35,096 nt of DNA, from IMG/VR virus record IMGVR_UViG_3300042309_000653, positions 1-35,096 of that record. The stretch is one strand, 5' to 3'. The position numbers were made by a program, and so were the translations under genes. Below, piece by piece: positions 2 to 12,289 of this stretch. Numbering within the stretch: position 1 is the stretch's first letter; every line of letters begins with the position of its first letter. The notes under the pieces were generated by a model that saw only the letters and a program-made list of their open reading frames with translations, was not told the origin of the DNA and did no database searches. Source of the stretch: a virus.

Positions 2-181
2 CAAATCAGGCTGGCATTCTACGAAAAATTCCAAAGCTACGGAATTGACCCGGCAACGATCATGCTGCTGGTTCAACTTGCTTTGCTGATCTACAAAGCA
101 CTCAAGGCGGCCGGCTATTTTGATCAGGCCGAAGGTTTTCAAAGCGTGGCGAACGCGAAATCAATCATAGGGGACTTGTAA
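2..181 (+). CDS. Partial small hypothetical protein, possible holin-like
   Basis: This reading frame enters from the left edge and ends at TAA 179-181, so only the last 59 residues are visible. It contains one hydrophobic stretch (MLLVQLALLIYKAL) followed by an amphipathic, glycine- and lysine-containing tail. The stop overlaps the next start (TAATG), which implies translational coupling with the small membrane protein that follows. Location in a run of small membrane proteins ahead of a protease suggests a lysis-cassette role, but no family is recognised. Confidence 0.6.
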   Translation, partial: QIRLAFYEKFQSYGIDPATIMLLVQLALLIYKALKAAGYFDQAEGFQSVANAKSIIGDL

Positions 182-372
182 TGGACTGGGCATCAATTGG
201 CCGAGGTGCGGTCATTGCAATCGGCGGGGCGGCATTGACGTTTGCGGCTAGCGTGGTGATTCCGGCGATGCAGGCGAGCGGCAATGCAACATTGCTAACG
301 GTAGCCGCTTTCGCGTCCGTGGCAATCAACATCTTGCGGAAGTATCTGGAATCGAAAAATGCCGGCACTTGA
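181..372 (+). CDS. Small membrane protein, holin-like
   Basis: A 63-residue protein with two hydrophobic segments (about residues 8-29, GAVIAIGGAALTFAASVVI, and 38-53, ATLLTVAAFASVAINIL) and a short charged C-terminus. Size, two predicted membrane passes and the basic tail fit a small holin, the protein that permeabilises the inner membrane at lysis. The start overlaps the preceding stop by one base, and the end overlaps the next gene by 14 bases. The holin call is inferred from topology and neighbourhood. It could equally be a membrane protein of unrelated function. Confidence 0.6.
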   Translation: MDWASIGRGAVIAIGGAALTFAASVVIPAMQASGNATLLTVAAFASVAINILRKYLESKNAGT

Positions 373-628
373 TCCGCAGACAATCGCACCGATAGCGTTA
401 GCTGCGGCCGCCGTTTGGCTGCTTTTCGGTGACAAGATTCGCTCCGTGTGGGGCACCTGGGGGAGGATCGGTAGCGGCAACTCAGCCGGAGGTGATCTAC
501 AATCACTGGTTGCCGCTGCCGATCTTTTGATTCGACACTTTGATGCGAACGGCGACGACGAAGGATCGCAGGCGGCACGGACAGCCGCCGGTCGTCTTTT
601 TGCTTCAAGGCCGGAGGTGAAGCCGTGA
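359..628 (+). CDS. Small single-pass membrane protein
   Basis: An 89-residue protein with an N-terminal membrane segment (about residues 9-24, APIALAAAAVWLLFGD), a glycine-rich linker and an alpha-helical acidic tail with LIRHFDANGDDEG. It starts inside the end of the previous gene, and its stop (TGA 626-628) overlaps the GTG start of the next. The neighbours suggest an envelope or lysis role. No known family is recognised. Confidence 0.6.
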   Translation: MPALDPQTIAPIALAAAAVWLLFGDKIRSVWGTWGRIGSGNSAGGDLQSLVAAADLLIRHFDANGDDEGSQAARTAAGRLFASRPEVKP

Positions 629-885
629 TAGATGGCGACACAATGCAGTCCGCGGAGTATTGCAGATATTTTTTTGGCGGCGAGAGTCGCGGCCGAGATA
701 CGACTGAACCGGTAACGATAAATCTTTCCTTTGTGGACCGGTGCGGCCCTGAGTGGACCGAAACGGCAGTTGTCAAAGACGAAAACGAAAGAAAGCCTTT
801 TGACGGCAACCGGCACGAACGGCGCAAAGCCGCAGCAATCGATCGATCGTGGGAAAAGCGACGAAAGAAAGAGGCCAAGCCGTGA
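625..885 (+). CDS. Hypothetical protein with basic C-terminus
   Basis: An 86-residue soluble protein starting at GTG 625, four bases before the previous stop ends (GTGA overlap), with GGAGG at 612-616 as ribosome binding site. The last 30 residues are strongly basic (RHERRKAAA, EKRRKKEAKP), suggesting nucleic-acid or membrane-surface contact. No family is recognised. The overlap with neighbours on both sides supports it being translated. Confidence 0.55.
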   Translation: MIDGDTMQSAEYCRYFFGGESRGRDTTEPVTINLSFVDRCGPEWTETAVVKDENERKPFDGNRHERRKAAAIDRSWEKRRKKEAKP

Positions 886-1265
886 CCCACAAGCAGCGAA
901 TCGGGCTGGCTCTATTGCTCTTGGCCGCTGCAGTTTGGATGCGTGGCGGTGGTGCGATCGGCCGCGACATCAGCGACGATGGTCTGTACGTGCTTGTGCT
1001 CGAAGATGGCAGCCGACCTGAAGCAATCACGGCAGAACAGGGTGCGGTTATCAATTCGTTGCGATTGCTTGAGGCCGTTAAATCGAAAGGCGGGCAGTAT
1101 CTTAAACAGGACGTTCGCGACAGCTTCGACGGGCTGGGCATCTGGCAACAATTAAAAAACAAGATCCCAAATCCGCCGGGAATGGCGATCGCGAAGGGCG
1201 GATCGGTGCGGGTCGAAGCGATACCGTCGCGAATCGATGACGCTATCAGGATGGTTGAAAGATGA
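882..1265 (+). CDS. Exported/membrane-anchored hypothetical protein
   Basis: I place the start at GTG 882 (GTGA overlap with the previous stop, GAGG at 871-874) instead of the upstream ATG 849, because this puts a signal/anchor segment (RIGLALLLLAAAVWM) directly at the N-terminus. The 127-residue product then continues with a compact domain (LYVLVLEDGSRPEAITAEQ) that is probably periplasmic. The domain could be a divergent thioredoxin-like fold, but no CxxC is present and I cannot assign it. It sits in the putative envelope/lysis operon. Confidence 0.6.
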   Translation: MTHKQRIGLALLLLAAAVWMRGGGAIGRDISDDGLYVLVLEDGSRPEAITAEQGAVINSLRLLEAVKSKGGQYLKQDVRDSFDGLGIWQQLKNKIPNPPGMAIAKGGSVRVEAIPSRIDDAIRMVER

Positions 1266-1441
1266 GCGTCGAAGAGCTTGCCGAAATGCTGCCAGCTACC
1301 GTGCGAGATTTGGTTTACGCTCTTGCAGACGTCCGGACGCTTAGCAGCGGACCGGCATCGAAGCGGAATAATGAGACGATCAAGCAGATAGCGGATAACG
1401 CACTGACGCGGCTAAAAGAGGCCGTGCAGGAAATGGAATGA
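1262..1441 (+). CDS. Small acidic helical hypothetical protein
   Basis: A 59-residue ORF, ATG 1262 to TGA 1439-1441, with ATGA overlaps at both ends. The product (MSVEELAEMLPATVRDL...) looks all-helical, with a repeated pattern of leucine and alanine and no membrane segment. It fills exactly the space between two confident genes, so it is very likely real. Function is unknown. Confidence 0.6.
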   Translation: MSVEELAEMLPATVRDLVYALADVRTLSSGPASKRNNETIKQIADNALTRLKEAVQEME

Positions 1442-1776
1442 CAAACAACAGAATCGACGGAGTGATTATCGTGATTGCGTTAGTTTTTTGCGGCTTGCTT
1501 TTCTGGCAGAATCCGCCTACCGAAACGCGGCAAGCATCGAAGCTTGTTCGCGATCCCGTTACGGGCATCGAGGTCAGCGGGCGTGCCGTGATCATGATTT
1601 CGAAACAGGGCTGCGCACCGTGCGAACAGCTCAAGCGTGAAACGCTACCAGAGGCACGGGAAGCCGGCTACGAAACGACGATCGTTGAGCAGCCGTCCGA
1701 GCGTTATCCCACGACTCGAATCTTCGACGGTAAGCGATGGCAGACACGGTTTGGATTCTTTCGGTGGGGACGTTGA
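1438..1776 (+). CDS. Membrane-anchored thioredoxin-like protein (CAPC)
   Basis: A 112-residue protein with an N-terminal membrane anchor (about residues 8-23, GVIIVIALVFCGLLFW), a short linker, then a minimal thioredoxin fold. A beta strand (AVIMISKQG) leads into the redox motif CAPC at residues 59-62, then a helix, then a probable cis-proline in YPTTRIFDG (P91). By family rules this is a thiol-disulfide exchange protein whose catalytic domain lies outside the cytoplasmic membrane. The gene runs directly into the papain-like protease gene (TGATG at 1774-1778), so the two are probably translated together. A redox partner or reducer of envelope disulfides is the likely role, but this is inference. 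Confidence 0.8.
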   Translation: MTNNRIDGVIIVIALVFCGLLFWQNPPTETRQASKLVRDPVTGIEVSGRAVIMISKQGCAPCEQLKRETLPEAREAGYETTIVEQPSERYPTTRIFDGKRWQTRFGFFRWGR

Positions 1777-2609
1777 TGTATCTTTCGGACCTGGGCAACA
1801 ACCCGCTCATTATCGACGATGGCAACGCAACAAAGTTTGTCGACCAGTGGCGACAAGAGGGCTATTCGTTCGGGATGACGCCGCGGGATTATGCAGCCGC
1901 ACCGTTTGGAAGTGCAAACAAGCCGGCCCGTGATCTATCAATGGGCGAAGTGCTCAAGCGATCGCAATTTGCGGACGCGATCAAGCGAGCGGACGAGAAT
2001 AAAACGACGCCGGACGATTGGCGGATGGCACTGGCACCATGGATTGAAATGCAGAGTTCATGGGGTTTCTGCTGGGGATTTGGGACTTGCAAAGCGATCG
2101 AAATTACTTACGCAATGAGCGGCAACAATGTACCGCATCTAAATCCATTTCCTACATGCTACCGAATAAAAAACGGACGCAATCAAGGCGGGTGGGCCGA
2201 AGAGTTTTTGCGCGGCGTAGAGCAATTTGGAATCGTTGAACATAGCCTCTGGAGAGGCAACGAAGCCAACATGCAGAATTGGGAACGTGGCGAGATCAAA
2301 TCAAATGGCGAACTCCACAAAGTGACCGCATCGCTAGAGCTTCCGACGAATGATTTTGCCGCACTGGTGACATCGTTGACGCATCCGAAAGTGCCGCGAC
2401 CCGTTACGCTAGGACTGAACTGGTGGGGGCACCTCGTTTGCGGCGTTAGGGCAGTAGTGATCGAGCCCGGAAAATTTGGTATAAAGATCGTCAACAGTTG
2501 GGGCGACAGTTGGGGCGAAGGCGGGTGCGCGATCCTCACGGAATCGAAAGCAACCGCAGCGGAACAGATCAGAATCGAGCGAGCGAAACCGAGGCCGGTA
2601 GCAGCATGA
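1776..2609 (+). CDS. Papain-family (C1) cysteine protease
   Basis: A 277-residue protein from ATG 1776; I prefer this over the in-frame ATG 1737 because it gives a TGATG overlap and follows GGTGGGG at 1763-1769. The C1 peptidase hallmarks are in order: oxyanion-hole Gln93 and nucleophile Cys99 in QSSWGFCWGF, His219 in WWGHLVCGV, and Asn240 in IVNSWGDSWGEGG. A glycine-rich NQGGW block resembles the papain GCNGG region. No pro-region or signal peptide is evident; residues 1-90 form a short N-terminal extension. It sits among holin-like genes and after a thioredoxin-like gene, and no muramidase or amidase is seen nearby. A role as a protein-degrading endolysin or envelope protease is therefore plausible but unproven. 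Substrate is unknown. Confidence 0.85.
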   Translation: MYLSDLGNNPLIIDDGNATKFVDQWRQEGYSFGMTPRDYAAAPFGSANKPARDLSMGEVLKRSQFADAIKRADENKTTPDDWRMALAPWIEMQSSWGFCWGFGTCKAIEITYAMSGNNVPHLNPFPTCYRIKNGRNQGGWAEEFLRGVEQFGIVEHSLWRGNEANMQNWERGEIKSNGELHKVTASLELPTNDFAALVTSLTHPKVPRPVTLGLNWWGHLVCGVRAVVIEPGKFGIKIVNSWGDSWGEGGCAILTESKATAAEQIRIERAKPRPVAA

Positions 2610-2887
2610 CAACCGAACTAAAAACCAGCAAACGCCCCGACGGCAGCGGCTTCGGCGAAGTCATTCGCGACGGCTTGCAGGTCGTGCGGATTAACTGGCG
2701 GGGCGATGGCGGGGCAACGCCTAGCGACGTGATCCGCCTCACGATTACGCGAATGGAAGACGAGCAACGCGGCGGGCCGTTTGCAGATCCGAAAGCGGCA
2801 AAGGCACTGGCGTTGATGCTCCAAGCCGACAGAGAGCTTCGCGGCGATCAGACCAACGTGGACGGCGTGCCGATTATCGGAGACTGA
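2606..2887 (+). CDS. Small hypothetical protein
   Basis: A 93-residue protein whose start at ATG 2606 overlaps the protease stop (ATGA). An upstream in-frame ATG at 2498 would overlap the protease by over 100 bases and is rejected. The sequence has a beta-rich start (GFGEVIRDGLQVVRINWRG) and a helical middle (DPKAAKALALMLQADREL). No membrane segment or family is recognised. Coupling suggests co-expression with the protease. Confidence 0.6.
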   Translation: MTTELKTSKRPDGSGFGEVIRDGLQVVRINWRGDGGATPSDVIRLTITRMEDEQRGGPFADPKAAKALALMLQADRELRGDQTNVDGVPIIGD

Positions 2888-2888
2888 A

Positions 2889-3335
2889 TTGGATCGCAGG
2901 GACGCATTCATCATCCTATCAATCGCACTTGCGGCATGGTCAGCCGCTTCGGTCGGCGTCCGTAATAGCGAGACGGCACCAATACAGCAACTCGTTGAAG
3001 ATGTGCCAACATACGAGGACCGCGACGATAGTTACAGAGCCCCGATTGATCGATCGACGATCGTTGTCGTGTGCGACGTTCACGGGCAGCCGATGACCCG
3101 CTGGATGGCAAGCGAAGGGGCGGCACTGATCGCGAAGGGCTGGCGTATCCAAACGATCGATCTAGAGGGCTCAACCGAGTTCCGCTTCTACGTTTATCAA
3201 GGTGGAACATGGAAGATCCACAACGGGCATCTATCACTGCAAACACTCACGACCCTTCTGTCACGGACGACACCGCCGCAACCACGAAGCATGCAGACGG
3301 GTTCGCCGTCCGTGGCGGAGGGCTTGAGCAAGTGA
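2889..3335 (+). CDS. Exported protein, degenerate thioredoxin-like
   Basis: A 148-residue protein starting at TTG 2889, right after the previous stop. An N-terminal hydrophobic segment (FIILSIALAAWSAASVGV) is a signal or anchor. Residues about 58-118 (TIVVVCDVHGQPMTRWM..., ending YVYQGGTWKIHNGHL) can be laid beside the CAPC protein encoded at 1438-1776: strand, loop, helix ending in an AKGW/EAGY turn, strand, then a YQGGTW/FDGKRW hairpin. The CxxC position reads HGQP, so redox activity is not expected. The thioredoxin-like fold is my inference from this hand alignment. The last 40 residues overlap the next gene. Confidence 0.6.
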   Translation: MDRRDAFIILSIALAAWSAASVGVRNSETAPIQQLVEDVPTYEDRDDSYRAPIDRSTIVVVCDVHGQPMTRWMASEGAALIAKGWRIQTIDLEGSTEFRFYVYQGGTWKIHNGHLSLQTLTTLLSRTTPPQPRSMQTGSPSVAEGLSK

Positions 3336-3634
3336 ACTTGCCACTAGACAACGACACGAAAAAGCTTGTCGCCGCGTGGATTGCACAGCAGGGCGTCCCG
3401 ACGATTTTGCTGTTTTGCATTCTTGGTTTTCTGGCGTACTCGATGGTCGTGCTGATTCCCGAAGTGGATAAGAAGCGATCGGAAGAAATCGCACAACGAA
3501 TATCAGATTTAGTCACTCGCCAGAATGAAGCGATTACCAAGATGGTTGAATCGCATGACAAGGACCGCGAACTATTTATTGAGCTGATGCGTGATCGGCT
3601 CCCCGCCAAATCCTCACCCTCCGAGGTTCGATGA
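3209..3634 (+). CDS. Membrane protein with coiled coil, holin-like
   Basis: Start ATG 3209 is chosen because AAGGTGG lies just upstream (3199-3205). The earlier in-frame start at 3071 lies deep inside the previous gene. The 141-residue product has a Thr/Asp-rich N-terminus, one strong membrane segment (PTILLFCILGFLAYSMVVLI), then a long charged helix (RSEEIAQRISDLVTRQNEAI...) that probably forms a coiled coil. This layout is seen in some phage holins and spanin-like proteins. The assignment is by topology only. Confidence 0.65.
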   Translation: MEDPQRASITANTHDPSVTDDTAATTKHADGFAVRGGGLEQVNLPLDNDTKKLVAAWIAQQGVPTILLFCILGFLAYSMVVLIPEVDKKRSEEIAQRISDLVTRQNEAITKMVESHDKDRELFIELMRDRLPAKSSPSEVR

Positions 3635-3804
3635 TGGATGTGTTGTTTCTATTTGTGTTGTGTGGTGCGACAGCGGCCGTTAGTGTCGTTGTTTACGCAC
3701 CGCGACCAAGGAGGGCTTGCGATGTACGAATGGTTTTCGGATCTAGTTTTTCAGCCGATGATAACCGGCCAAGATCCGTGGACGATTGCAATTGTGCTCG
3801 ATGA
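3631..3804 (+). CDS. Possible tiny membrane protein
   Basis: A 57-residue ORF starting at ATG 3631, overlapping the preceding stop (ATGATGG), with a hydrophobic N-terminus (MDVLFLFVLCGATAAVSVVV) and a polar, cysteine-containing tail. The hydrophobic segment ends in a way that could be a signal peptide. Its 3' half overlaps the better supported ORF at 3722-3844 in another frame, so one of the two may be spurious, or the pair may be a nested set as in spanin genes. Confidence 0.4.
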   Translation: MMDVLFLFVLCGATAAVSVVVYAPRPRRACDVRMVFGSSFSADDNRPRSVDDCNCAR

Positions 3805-3844
3805 TTACTTACGATGGTTGTTTAACGCACCGCCGAGGACATAA
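3722..3844 (+). CDS. Tiny hypothetical protein with strong RBS
   Basis: A 40-residue ORF (MYEWFSDLVFQPM..., ending FNAPPRT) preceded by AAGGAGG at 3708-3714, a near-perfect ribosome binding site 7 bases from the ATG. It is aromatic and amphipathic with no clear membrane pass. The stop TAA overlaps the ATG of the next gene (TAATG). The ribosome site and coupling make translation likely. Function is unknown. Confidence 0.6.
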   Translation: MYEWFSDLVFQPMITGQDPWTIAIVLDDYLRWLFNAPPRT

Positions 3845-4014
3845 TGCCGCTTTACACTATCGTTTTTGTGCTAGCCGTAGCCTCTGGCTTGATTGCTTGG
3901 CAGTCATATTGGCTACGCGAACAAGTCAAAGAGCAACGCAAAAAAGCAGAGGCCGAAAGGAACTTTTTGCTTGAGCTTGCAGTTTGCATACAGAAAATAA
4001 GCAATAAGCTTTAG
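3844..4014 (+). CDS. Small membrane-anchored helical protein (spanin/holin-like)
   Basis: A 56-residue ORF, ATG 3844 to TAG 4012-4014, with an N-terminal membrane segment (YTIVFVLAVASGLIAW) and a long charged helix (LREQVKEQRKKAEAERNF). This is the layout of an inner-membrane spanin or a small coiled-coil holin accessory. It closes the small-protein cluster; 33 bases with no visible signal separate it from the next gene. The call is by topology only. Confidence 0.6.
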   Translation: MPLYTIVFVLAVASGLIAWQSYWLREQVKEQRKKAEAERNFLLELAVCIQKISNKL

Positions 4015-4047
4015 ACCGATCCTCCCGCCTTAACACCCCGCCAAAAC

Positions 4048-4563
4048 ATGATTGACTGGACACAGCCATCCGCGACCATTCTTTCTCAATTATTGGAAAT
4101 CGTCGAGCGGCGAAGGCCGATCAGCGAGTCATGGGCAACGGGGGCGCGAGGCTTGCGAGACTTTGGCCCCGGCTCAAGCGGCTGGGGCGGAATGGTTGCA
4201 AAGCTTCGGCAGATGGGCTTTAGCGACGTTGCCGACCAGATGGTTAGCGGAATGGATTTCGGCGACCCTCAAGTGCAAACAATGCTAACGCAATTGGGCG
4301 AGATTGAACCCGACACGTTTACGCCAGAACGCATTGCAATCATGAAAGATTGGGGCGTCCAGAGCCAGCCGCGTTGGATGCTGGAAGCATTCGCAGAGGA
4401 ACCGACGATCGGCGACGTTGAATTTCGTAAAGGTCGAGAGCTTGCGATTGCATCGACCGCCGCACGCATCAACGCAGCAAGCGAAGCGAGACGCGAAGCA
4501 ATTGACGACACGACAAAGACCGGCGAAGAAATTGAAAACGCAACGGTGGAGGCGTTTGACTGA
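4048..4563 (+). CDS. Hypothetical protein
   Basis: A 171-residue soluble protein with an N-terminal helical part, a glycine-rich stretch (FGPGSSGWGGMVAKL) and an alanine-rich helical C-terminus (IASTAARINAASEARREAI). No catalytic motif is visible. It starts a three-gene block with the LamG-like and fibre-like genes, so it may be a tail or adhesin accessory protein. Its stop overlaps the next start (TGATGG). Confidence 0.6.
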   Translation: MIDWTQPSATILSQLLEIVERRRPISESWATGARGLRDFGPGSSGWGGMVAKLRQMGFSDVADQMVSGMDFGDPQVQTMLTQLGEIEPDTFTPERIAIMKDWGVQSQPRWMLEAFAEEPTIGDVEFRKGRELAIASTAARINAASEARREAIDDTTKTGEEIENATVEAFD

Positions 4564-7212: not shown

Positions 7213-7699
7213 AAAGCCGCCAGAAGAACTAGAGCGAAGCGGAGCCTACGACAAAAACCCTCAGCGCCGCATCACCGACGCTGCCAAGCCGCTGGCCGGC
7301 TGCCCCGTCAAGCCGCACGAGGTAGCCGACGATCCCGCAGCGGACAGGGCTTGGGACGAAGTTGCCGAGATCCTAAGCGGCATGGGCACGCTATCGCCAA
7401 GCTACCAAAAGCAGATGACGCAATACGCGAAGGCATGTGCCCGTGCTGATCAGTGCTGGCGGATTGTTAACGAAGAAGGGTTAATCATCCAGAACGAAAA
7501 GGGCGTCCCATCGGTCCACCCTGCCCAAAAAGAATGGGACGCACTAACGGACAAGATTCTGAAAATCTGCATTGAGTTTGGTTTAACGCCGGCCGCTCGG
7601 TCGCGGGTCAGAACAGGAAAAACCGAAGAGGACGCGGATCCAGTGCTCGAAATGCTCAAGAGGATGCAAACGAAAAAGGTTGTCGCAGCAAACGGTTGA
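7199..7699 (+). CDS. terS: Terminase small subunit, P27 family
   Basis: A 166-residue protein with the P27-type layout: basic N-terminus (MARPRKPPEELERSGAYDKNP), then a helical body with WDEVAEILSGMGTLSPSYQ and YAKACARADQCWRIVNEEG, and the characteristic HPAQKEWDALTDKILKICIEFGLTP block leading to SRVR. TerS recognises phage DNA and recruits the large subunit to start packaging. The gene overlaps TerL by 20 bases, as is common for this pair. Confidence 0.92.
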   Translation: MARPRKPPEELERSGAYDKNPQRRITDAAKPLAGCPVKPHEVADDPAADRAWDEVAEILSGMGTLSPSYQKQMTQYAKACARADQCWRIVNEEGLIIQNEKGVPSVHPAQKEWDALTDKILKICIEFGLTPAARSRVRTGKTEEDADPVLEMLKRMQTKKVVAANG

Positions 7700-9356
7700 C
7701 ATCCGCCGCGACGTTACGGCTTATGCCGAAGGCGTCGTCAGTGGCAAGATAACCGCCGGCAAGTGGGTCCGCCTAGCTTGTGAGCGATTCCTGCGCGACC
7801 TAGAGGATCCCGGTGATTATTATTTTGACTGGGACTTGGCCGAAAATGCTTGCCTAATCTTCCCGCTGATCTTTCGTCACTACAAGGGTGAATGGGCGGG
7901 GCAGCCGATTGAGCTTTGCGATTTTCAAAAATTTGTAACGGCCAACATAATCGGATGGAAACATAAACAAACCGACTTCCGACGCTTCCGTCGTGCTTTT
8001 GTGTCGGTTGCTCGAAAGAACGGAAAAACAACATGGGCGGCAGGGCTTGCTATCCTGTTCGCATTTTTTGACGGCGAAGCCGCTGCCGAAGTCTATATTG
8101 GAGCGACCAAGCGAGAGCAAGCGGCGATCCTATTCACTGACGCGAAACAGATGATCGCGGCATCGCAGACACTAAGCAAGCACGCCGATAGCCGGGTTAG
8201 TGTTATTCAATTTCCCGCCACCCATAGCCTTATCAGGCCGCTTGGCAGCGATAAGCCTTATGACGGATTGAACCCTCACGCAATCTTTCTTGATGAGCTA
8301 CATGCTTGGGTAGAGCGTCACCGAAAATTCTATGACACGATGCGGACCGGCTCAGGTGCAAGGCGACAGCCGCTACTCTGCACAATCACAACCGCAGGAG
8401 ATGACAAATCGGAGCTATGGAAAGACGAAGTTGGATATTGCAAGCTCATCCTAGAGCAACAGGCAGCAGATCCGCAGTTATTCGCCTACGTTGCCGAACT
8501 CGATGACGACGATGACCCGTTTGACGAATCAACGTGGATCAAAGCAAACCCCGGCCTGGGGCAATCGGTGAAGCTTGACTATCTACGAGAGCAAGCCGCG
8601 GAAGCTAAGGCCAAGCAAACAGCCAAGAATCGATTCTTGCGCTACCATTGCAACCGCATGACATCGTCCACAGAGCACGCCATTGACGTGCGGCGATGGG
8701 ATGAACTTGGCACCGGATTAACCGAGTGGGAAGACGCTGACGCAATCGCAGCGGGGTTTGACCTAGGCGGCCGCGACGACTTGGCATCCTGGGCGGTGGT
8801 TGCACGATTCAGGGTTGGCGAGGATGAAGACGAAAGGCCAATCTATCGCTATGAGTGCAAACAGCGATCGTATATGTTTGCAGACACCCGCCGCGACTTG
8901 TCGCTACAGCCTTTCGCGTCGTTTATTTCGCAGGGACTAATCGACGTTGGCAAGTATGCTCTTGATTCACTCCGGGATGACTTGATCAAAGAATGCGAAG
9001 ATTGGAGCATATCGGAAATTGCATTCGACCCTTATCAGGCAAATGTGATTGCGGGGCATCTTGAGCAAGAAGGGCTTAAACCTATTCGTATGCCTCAGAA
9101 TTACCTTCATTTTAACGAGCCTATCCGAGCATTCTTGCAAGCGATCACCGAAGGGCGATTCTCGCACAGCGGAAGCGATTCCCTGCTAAGATACTGCGTA
9201 CAAAATGCGGTAATTGTCAGGGATCGGGCGGATAGGTGGATGTTTGACAAGAGTAATAGCCGCGACAAGATTGACCCGGTGGTTGCGGTGGTGATGGCGT
9301 TTCGCGCTTGCATGAGCACGAGGGCACGGGCACACGGTTCGATGTTTATTAGCTAA
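7680..9356 (+). CDS. terL: Terminase large subunit, HK97/Terminase_1 type
   Basis: A 558-residue packaging motor. The ATPase domain has Walker A ARKNGKTT (residues 111-118) and Walker B AIFLDE (201-206). The C-terminal RNase H-like nuclease has acidic residues in GFDLGGRDD (D361), EIAFDPYQ (D450) and KIDPVVAVVMA. Start is TTG 7680; the following AYAEGVVSGKITAGKWVRLAC block is the usual N-terminus of this family, so no later start fits. It translocates DNA into proheads and cuts it. Position between TerS and portal is standard. Confidence 0.96.
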   Translation: MSQQTVDIRRDVTAYAEGVVSGKITAGKWVRLACERFLRDLEDPGDYYFDWDLAENACLIFPLIFRHYKGEWAGQPIELCDFQKFVTANIIGWKHKQTDFRRFRRAFVSVARKNGKTTWAAGLAILFAFFDGEAAAEVYIGATKREQAAILFTDAKQMIAASQTLSKHADSRVSVIQFPATHSLIRPLGSDKPYDGLNPHAIFLDELHAWVERHRKFYDTMRTGSGARRQPLLCTITTAGDDKSELWKDEVGYCKLILEQQAADPQLFAYVAELDDDDDPFDESTWIKANPGLGQSVKLDYLREQAAEAKAKQTAKNRFLRYHCNRMTSSTEHAIDVRRWDELGTGLTEWEDADAIAAGFDLGGRDDLASWAVVARFRVGEDEDERPIYRYECKQRSYMFADTRRDLSLQPFASFISQGLIDVGKYALDSLRDDLIKECEDWSISEIAFDPYQANVIAGHLEQEGLKPIRMPQNYLHFNEPIRAFLQAITEGRFSHSGSDSLLRYCVQNAVIVRDRADRWMFDKSNSRDKIDPVVAVVMAFRACMSTRARAHGSMFIS

Positions 9357-10998: not shown

Positions 10999-11627
10999 CC
11001 GGCACGCAATCGCCAATGGTGGCAACCGAACTGCGTTTTGAGTGGCTAAACGACCGTGCAGACGGCTGGCAATTCGGAGAAACGGGCATCCTTGAGGCAC
11101 TTTCAGAGCGTTTTAGCCCCGATTTAGCGGTTGAAATCGGAGCTGGCGACGGGCAAAGTTTGCCGCTTACGCTCGGCTTTTTGCTCGAAAAAGGCGTCAA
11201 AACAGTGCTTTTTGAGGCCGATGAACTACGCCAAAACGCGCTCAAAATGACACGAAAAGCGGCTGTTATCCACGGTTTCTTTGACGCAAGGCTGCTAGAT
11301 GGCCTGGAACTGTCTCAAAGTTTCGTTGTGGTTGACGTCGACGGGCAAGATTGGCCGATTGCTGAGGAAGTGCTGAGATGCGGCAAGCCGCAAGTAATGA
11401 TGATCGAACACTATGACGAATTCGGGCCGCGGTACGGCAGGTGCGATCCGGAAGGGCTACCGCCGCGGTGGTGTCTTGGTCTGCTTGTCGATGGATTTTC
11501 GATTCAGGCACCAGCAAAAGAAATTGAAAAACGCATTCGCTGGTACGGCTACACGCTCATCGCAAAAAGCCGCGTGAACTCTCTTTTTGTCCGCAACGAT
11601 CTATTGCCAACCCTGGAGGGCTGCTGA
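10995..11627 (+). CDS. SAM-methyltransferase-like (FkbM-like) protein
   Basis: A 210-residue Rossmann-type protein. Motif I is AVEIGAGDGQS (residues 45-55), followed by the acidic end of strand 2 in VLFEADE (E74) and a strand VVVDVDGQDW (111-120) that matches the motif after the SAM site in FkbM-like methyltransferases. It starts in an ATGA overlap with portal and ends one base into the prohead protease, so it is built into the head operon. Substrate is unknown; modification of a virion glycan or protein would fit the two glycosyltransferase-like genes in the same operon. It could also have lost catalytic activity. Confidence 0.65.
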   Translation: MTGTQSPMVATELRFEWLNDRADGWQFGETGILEALSERFSPDLAVEIGAGDGQSLPLTLGFLLEKGVKTVLFEADELRQNALKMTRKAAVIHGFFDARLLDGLELSQSFVVVDVDGQDWPIAEEVLRCGKPQVMMIEHYDEFGPRYGRCDPEGLPPRWCLGLLVDGFSIQAPAKEIEKRIRWYGYTLIAKSRVNSLFVRNDLLPTLEGC

Positions 11628-12289
11628 TGTTTTCTTACAACACGTCAACGAAAGAAATTTTTTTGTACGATTACATCGGCCCTGAATGGTTCGGGATGAT
11701 CGACGCGGGGGCTGTGCAAGAAGCGTTAAACGCGATTCCCGGCAGGGCTACCGTTCGCATCAACAGCGGGGGCGGTGGGGTCGATGAAGGAATTGCCATT
11801 TACGAAATGCTGCGGCGACACCCCGGCGGCGTTGACGTTGTCGTTGACTCTTCGGCCTATTCGATTGCTTCCGTGATTATGCTTGCGGGCGAATCGTTGA
11901 CGATGGCGAGGGGTGCGGCGGCTATGCTGCATTCCCCGTGGATGATGTTCGCTTCGGGCAACGCCAAAGAGCTTCGCAAGATCGCAGACATGCTAGAGAC
12001 GAGCGAGGAACGCCTAGTGTCAATCTACGAGGACGCATTTGCCAAGCGTGATAAGCGAAAGGACCGCGACGAAATCAAGGCGATACTAGACGCCGAGACG
12101 TGGTACACGGCACAGCAGGCACTAGATGCCGGTCTGATCGATGCGATTGATGGGCAAGCGGTAGAGCCGGTGGCGGCCAAGTATCGAAACATCCCGGCAG
12201 CAATCGCACGAGCACAAAAGGCAGGCGATCGAACGCCGTACCCGTTTGCGCGTGAATCGGCAAAACTGAGGCTGCGGAAAAACAGTTGA
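11627..12289 (+). CDS. Prohead maturation protease, ClpP (S14) type
   Basis: A 220-residue serine protease of the ClpP-like head maturation family. RINSGGGGVDEG (44-55) matches the INSPGG oxyanion region. The nucleophile is probably Ser79 in SSAYSIASVIMLAG, and the His is in AMLHSPW (H102). The terminal ETWYTAQQALDAGLIDAI block is a family hallmark. It cleaves the N-terminal scaffold (delta) domain of the capsid protein during maturation. The last codons overlap the TTGACA of the downstream promoter. Confidence 0.93.
   Translation: MFSYNTSTKEIFLYDYIGPEWFGMIDAGAVQEALNAIPGRATVRINSGGGGVDEGIAIYEMLRRHPGGVDVVVDSSAYSIASVIMLAGESLTMARGAAAMLHSPWMMFASGNAKELRKIADMLETSEERLVSIYEDAFAKRDKRKDRDEIKAILDAETWYTAQQALDAGLIDAIDGQAVEPVAAKYRNIPAAIARAQKAGDRTPYPFARESAKLRLRKNS

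Follow-up and report, generated by a model that had tools for sequence, protein, structure and literature searches.

How do tailed phages burst planctomycete cells? We know of no mechanism by which phages leave these cells. Our literature search had nothing on point for planctomycete phage lysis, for lysis cassettes with thioredoxins or for papain-like lysins in the phylum, and under two names of the phylum the taxonomy held no phage named after planctomycetes. The locus described here raises the question because it was proposed, in a preliminary description, to hold a thioredoxin-like protein and a papain-like protease among holin-like genes in the place of an endolysin. Disulfide reduction followed by proteolysis was suggested to open a protein- and cystine-rich planctomycete envelope. 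The window, i.e. the whole stretch of DNA analysed, comprises all 35,096 bases of the virus record IMGVR_UViG_3300042309_000653. Its genes for a terminase, a portal, a ClpP-type head protease, an HK97-type capsid, a tape measure, RecT and an exonuclease VIII-like protein are those of a siphovirus-like phage; a RusA-like gene at the right end was assigned by eye. The record is a linear fragment with unjoined ends. In relatives, the RusA-like gene is followed by 2-3.6 kb of small ORFs and then by genes matching the left end of the window, and a short stretch of this size is therefore missing from the record. The features of the locus are the following.

2 to 181, + strand: 3' end of a gene for a small protein that contains a hydrophobic helix (DPATIMLLVQLALLIYKALK), truncated by the window start and intact in loci L002 and L009
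181 to 372, + strand: holin-like protein of 63 aa, predicted to have two hydrophobic helices and a charged tail, so called from its topology
359 to 628, + strand: protein of 89 aa with a single hydrophobic helix, conserved beside the module
882 to 1265, + strand: protein A, N-terminal transmembrane helix and thioredoxin fold without CxxC, according to model and PDB matches
1438 to 1776, + strand: membrane-anchored thioredoxin-like protein, 112 aa, with N-terminal hydrophobic helix and GCAPC motif
1774 to 1778, + strand: TGATG stop-start overlap from the thioredoxin gene to the protease gene, read directly
1776 to 2609, + strand: cysteine protease of the papain family (C1), 277 aa, without signal peptide, predicted from sequence and fold
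2606 to 2887, + strand: 93-aa conserved protein overlapping the protease stop, no function assigned
2889 to 3335, + strand: 148-aa protein with N-terminal hydrophobic helix and soluble domain, conserved downstream of the protease
3209 to 3634, + strand: 141-aa protein with a hydrophobic helix followed by a long charged helical tail, a candidate by its spanin-like topology

The thioredoxin and protease genes were both found at the coordinates given before, and their predicted translational coupling shows in the overlap of the thioredoxin TGA (1774-1776) with the protease ATG (1776). The open frame of the protease extends back to an in-frame ATG at 1737. As the starts of the relatives correspond to 1776 and not to 1737, residue numbering from 1776 is right. 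Purifying selection acts on all genes of the module, and the dN/dS values of the thioredoxin (0.11) and the protease (0.16), calculated with the nearest relative, mark both as real genes. The CAPC codons lie at 1612-1623, and the two cysteines are invariant in 10 relatives. While Pfam gave no match for the thioredoxin of the window itself, up to 5 of the 10 aligned members of its set matched Thioredoxin_2 or Thioredoxin. A hydrophobic N-terminal segment scored above threshold in 7 of 10 thioredoxins, the other 3 being just below, and in 21 of 23 protein A sequences, compared to none of 26 proteases, which thus show no export signal. A cytoplasmic thioredoxin serving nucleotide metabolism was considered and appears unlikely, since the window protein is membrane-anchored and its relatives carry signal peptides.

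By its residues, its Pfam match and its modelled fold, the product of 1776-2609 is a member of peptidase family C1 (papain), with proteolysis as the predicted activity. The oxyanion glutamine (Gln93, codon 2052-2054), the nucleophilic cysteine (Cys99, 2070-2072), the catalytic histidine (His219, 2430-2432) and the asparagine (Asn240, 2493-2495) follow each other in C1 order. All four were described as intact and numbered correctly from the outset, and none of them varies across 26 aligned relatives, the most distant at about 20% identity. Pfam Peptidase_C1 (PF00112) scored 26.4 bits at a curated cut-off of 20.7, with several distant relatives scoring below this cut-off. At E<=0.001 the AlphaFold2 model (pLDDT 92) had 276 matches in the PDB, and all of the top 50 were of the papain/cathepsin type, proforms (procathepsins) included. 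Between the window and L002 (6025-6852) the synonymous divergence of the protease gene is saturated (dS 2.4), compared to 0.7-0.8 for most flanking module genes and 1.2 for the short holin-like gene. The high value relative to the neighbours suggests that phages have exchanged the protease gene without the genes around it. In one relative (L028 5738-7624, genome G022) a large in-frame insert, intein-like in appearance, splits the protease gene directly before the catalytic cysteine, with the junctions GLGY-[CATADTEVLT...LISGN]-CWVYA. No relative of the protease was found among 50,697 isolated phage records.

Protein A is the most constant partner of the protease and had been overlooked in the preliminary description. 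A profile search (E<=1e-3) found it close upstream of the protease wherever the upstream side is readable (31 of 31 loci), a count that includes loci outside the profile training (L012, L014, L018, L111). The profile gave no match in the two most divergent loci, L112 and L113, the latter of which shows a similar protein by eye. The gene usually overlaps that of the protease by a few bases; in the clade of the window the thioredoxin gene sits between the two. The model of protein A reached a pLDDT above 90 in the soluble domain, and its PDB matches were thioredoxins (probability 1.00, E 3e-3) at TM-scores of only about 0.5. It contains no CxxC and is thus not a redox enzyme of the thioredoxin class.

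Searching 2.9 million viral contigs identified 32 loci encoding relatives of the protease, with a conserved order of the module genes. In about half of these loci the protease is adjoined by a CxxC thioredoxin that carries an anchor or a signal peptide, upstream in the clade of the window and downstream in others. As this thioredoxin is missing from the immediate neighbourhood in the other half, it is not essential to the module. The reverse search of the same contigs with the CxxC thioredoxin as query gave 8 contigs, 7 of them with a protease of the window family next to it. The eighth, L123, carries beside its thioredoxin a papain-like protein without Pfam match, recognised by motif only (Q..C, WAH, NSW). 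The expected pairing of redox protein and protease in relatives is thus reciprocal in 8 of 8 reverse-search loci, one by motif only. In L123 the divergent papain-like protein lies at 2070-3065, the exported CPPC thioredoxin at 3737-4243 and a CAP/SCP-like domain protein, assigned by eye, at 7603-7968. Two unrelated phages, L014 and the integrated prophage L110, share a further arrangement, in which the gene directly after the C1 protease (L014 7868-8815, L110 18035-19168) encodes an exported trypsin-like domain fused to a CGPC thioredoxin. Trypsin_2 matched above the cut-off in both fusions, and Thioredoxin above the cut-off in L014 and weakly in L110. These natural fusions are the strongest independent support for redox chemistry and proteolysis acting together.

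Other genes were observed near the module. A DUF1353 (PF07087) protein recurs close upstream of the protease (L027 5168-5650, L033 5357-5743, L120 1514-1885, L121 1524-1895, L122 1525-1899), lies between protein A and the protease in L120-L122, and may by its position be a further part of the module. A membrane protein of 110-140 aa that contains a long charged helix and resembles Band-7/SPFH proteins by eye is encoded a few kb upstream of the module in L009 (4546-4977), from a phage of the window group, and in L111 (5382-5789), from the unrelated G228 prophage; the two proteins are 61-67% identical. The 99-kb phage G020 (L086-L091) carries a sialic-acid set of NeuB, a cytidylyltransferase and a GT29 sialyltransferase, together with several glycosyl- and methyltransferases.

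The remaining genes of the region were described as holin-like surroundings. Small membrane proteins are indeed present, while the term holin-like reflects topology only: the candidate at 181-372 is 97% identical in L002 (dN/dS 0.05) and has no family match. The protein at 2889-3335 is without Pfam match and thioredoxin-like by eye only. In PHROGs the module genes of the window matched only weakly, to a peptidase, a thioredoxin domain and one unknown family (E 0.016-0.041). The terminase gene follows directly on the module in several phages, a lambda-like order of lysis and packaging.

A conventional endolysin was searched for in the rest of the genome and in the relatives. Amidase_2, Phage_lysozyme, Amidase_3, SLT, Peptidase_M15_3 and NLPC_P60 matched none of 29 phage records, in a search that also covered two MAGs and had positive controls in all six families. 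Pfam scans detected no peptidoglycan hydrolase among the 59 ORFs of the window (E<=4e-4), among those ORFs of G001, the closest near-complete relative, that had no assignment, in two phages of 42-44 kb, in one of 47 kb and in the G228 prophage, nor among the best 25 of 40 families in the 99-kb phage. CHAP, M23, GH19, GH25 and GH108 were covered by these whole-phage scans only. The earlier statement that no muramidase or amidase is visible therefore extends, by Pfam, to all records searched, most of which are fragments and in which enzymes beyond the reach of Pfam would be missed. An endolysin hidden in the stretch missing from the window was rejected, as relatives spanning this gap show no hydrolase there. 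Since these viruses have no recognisable wall-dissolving enzyme, they may burst their hosts by a previously undescribed route.

The host had been taken to be a planctomycete, and the genome data agree. A scan of 84,980 species genomes for the protease gave two matches, both Planctomycetota MAGs, and 4 of 392 planctomycete genomes carry the protease. Altogether five cellular genomes harbour the module, all of them planctomycetes. In G228 it lies on a 3.0-Mb planctomycete contig within an element with tyrosine integrase, terminase, portal and capsid genes; in G239 and G361 the protease is found on long contigs with an adjoining terminase-like gene. Because the module-bearing cellular genomes, including that with the G228 prophage, are planctomycetes, the host assignment is good at the phylum level. 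A few genes downstream of the module the G228 prophage contains an ORF of 1,598 aa (L110 11738-16534), unusual for a phage, and this part of the prophage has Pfam matches to cadherin and PEP-CTERM.

The envelope assumed for the host is a weak premise. A proteinaceous planctomycete layer resistant to boiling SDS has long been described (PMC3422733). The picture of a wall rich in protein and cystine and free of peptidoglycan is nevertheless outdated, as planctomycetes have peptidoglycan sacculi that are disrupted by lysozyme (Jeske 2015, PMC4432640). In our data mraY scored above the cut-off in 42 of 51 planctomycete genomes, including the prophage host G228 (321 bits), and a peptidoglycan-less host as a general premise is thus unsupported. 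With peptidoglycan in the phylum and mraY in the G228 host, a papain-fold enzyme cutting peptidoglycan peptides is conceivable.

On balance we consider it just probable that region 2-3634 is a planctomycete phage lysis module, with the C1 protease as a substitute for the endolysin and with exported thioredoxin-fold partners. The lysis function, the identity of the holin, the substrate and the redox step are what we infer here. The cytoplasmic, leaderless papain-family protease would replace the peptidoglycan endolysin and would be released through a holin, a role for at least one of the small membrane proteins, with the exported thioredoxin-fold proteins waiting at the outer face of the inner membrane. 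There the CAPC protein could reduce disulfides of envelope proteins and/or keep the active-site cysteine of the protease reduced in the oxidising periplasm, and the cysteine-less protein A could bind or position the protease or its substrate. The cell would then burst as proteolysis breaks envelope proteins that bear load or form cross-links, or else peptide bonds in the wall. The target may be the protein layer, envelope proteins tying the outer membrane to the wall, or peptidoglycan peptides. That thioredoxin-driven disulfide reduction and papain-type proteolysis together break a cross-linked protein layer, without any peptidoglycan hydrolase, is a tentative and rather doubtful version.

Four other explanations were weighed against the lysis module. 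The papain-fold enzyme could be an endolysin that cuts the peptide stems or cross-links of peptidoglycan, the thioredoxins only keeping its catalytic thiol active. The papain fold is indeed shared by CHAP and NlpC/P60 lysins of phages and by the C71 enzymes that cut pseudomurein (PMC10318531), and the presence of peptidoglycan in planctomycetes (PMC4432640) and of mraY in the prophage host fits as well. Against this stands the position of both sequence and model within the C1 papain/cathepsin group with Gln-Cys-His-Asn, not with CHAP or NlpC. C1 enzymes are protein endopeptidases, and the trypsin-like-thioredoxin fusion in the module likewise points to protein substrates. Moreover, mraY fell below the cut-off in 4 of the 5 module-bearing genomes (G033, G034, G239, G361) versus 5 of 46 others (Fisher p=0.002), a post hoc comparison of a small sample, in which genome completeness is not known and 2 of the 5 genomes carry the module on short contigs. 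We therefore regard a peptidoglycan endolysin as unlikely.

An alteration of the host envelope during infection or lysogeny, such as receptor removal or superinfection exclusion, instead of lysis would agree with the occurrence of the module in an integrated prophage and with its exported, membrane-anchored partners. The protease itself, however, has no export signal, the module also occurs in phages without a detected integrase, where it leads into the late terminase block, and these phages would be left without an identifiable lysis enzyme, all of which makes this quite improbable. Little probability is also given to a protease acting in the host cytoplasm (take-over, amino-acid supply or inactivation of defence proteins) with neighbours unrelated to it. 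It lacks a signal peptide, and the reducing cytoplasm would keep a thiol protease active, but the start-stop overlap and the invariant adjacency to exported thioredoxin-fold proteins across very divergent phages argue against unrelated neighbours. Some phage proteases carry out head maturation, and the C1 gene lies upstream of the structural genes, as might suit a virion component or assembly protease. We hold this to be very improbable, since a ClpP-type head maturation protease is already encoded within the head block (11627-12289) and the C1 gene is surrounded by genes for membrane proteins, away from those of the virion. An identity of the C1 enzyme as the prohead protease was rejected for the same reason.

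If the lysis reading is true, a protease-thioredoxin module in the place of the endolysin would be a proteolytic lysis route new for tailed phages; to our knowledge, such a route is not known from any of them. The long debate over which parts of the planctomycete envelope bear the load, next to peptidoglycan or in its stead, could then be addressed directly. For dissecting this envelope, the proteases and the trypsin-thioredoxin fusions offer testable reagents.

Compared with known systems, the module most resembles in layout the lambda-type holin-endolysin-spanin cassette, in which a leaderless enzyme is encoded among small membrane proteins just before the packaging genes. In the window the same arrangement precedes the terminase block; in contrast to lambda, it is without a peptidoglycan hydrolase and has a C1 protease and exported thioredoxin-fold proteins, holin and spanin being candidates. 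Archaeal pseudomurein endoisopeptidases (PeiW, PeiP) are likewise virus-encoded cysteine enzymes of the papain superfamily that lyse hosts with an unusual wall. They differ in belonging to family C71 and in having pseudomurein as substrate, and we know of no thioredoxin partners for them. CHAP and NlpC/P60 phage endolysins have the papain-like fold and the cysteine nucleophile in common with the window protease and use them for lysis, whereas the latter shows C1 signatures, no CHAP, NlpC or amidase match and no recognised cell-wall-binding domain. With papain and the cathepsins (C1A) it shares the catalytic Gln-Cys-His-Asn, the NSW motif and the fold, but it is phage-borne, leaderless and about 20% identical, has a conserved N-terminal extension and carries its histidine within a WWGH signature. 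Finally, the phage thioredoxin has the CxxC and the signal peptide or anchor of secreted bacterial thioredoxins (Thioredoxin/Thioredoxin_2); unlike these, in the retrieved viral contigs it always stands beside a papain-like protease and is joined by a cysteine-less thioredoxin-fold partner.
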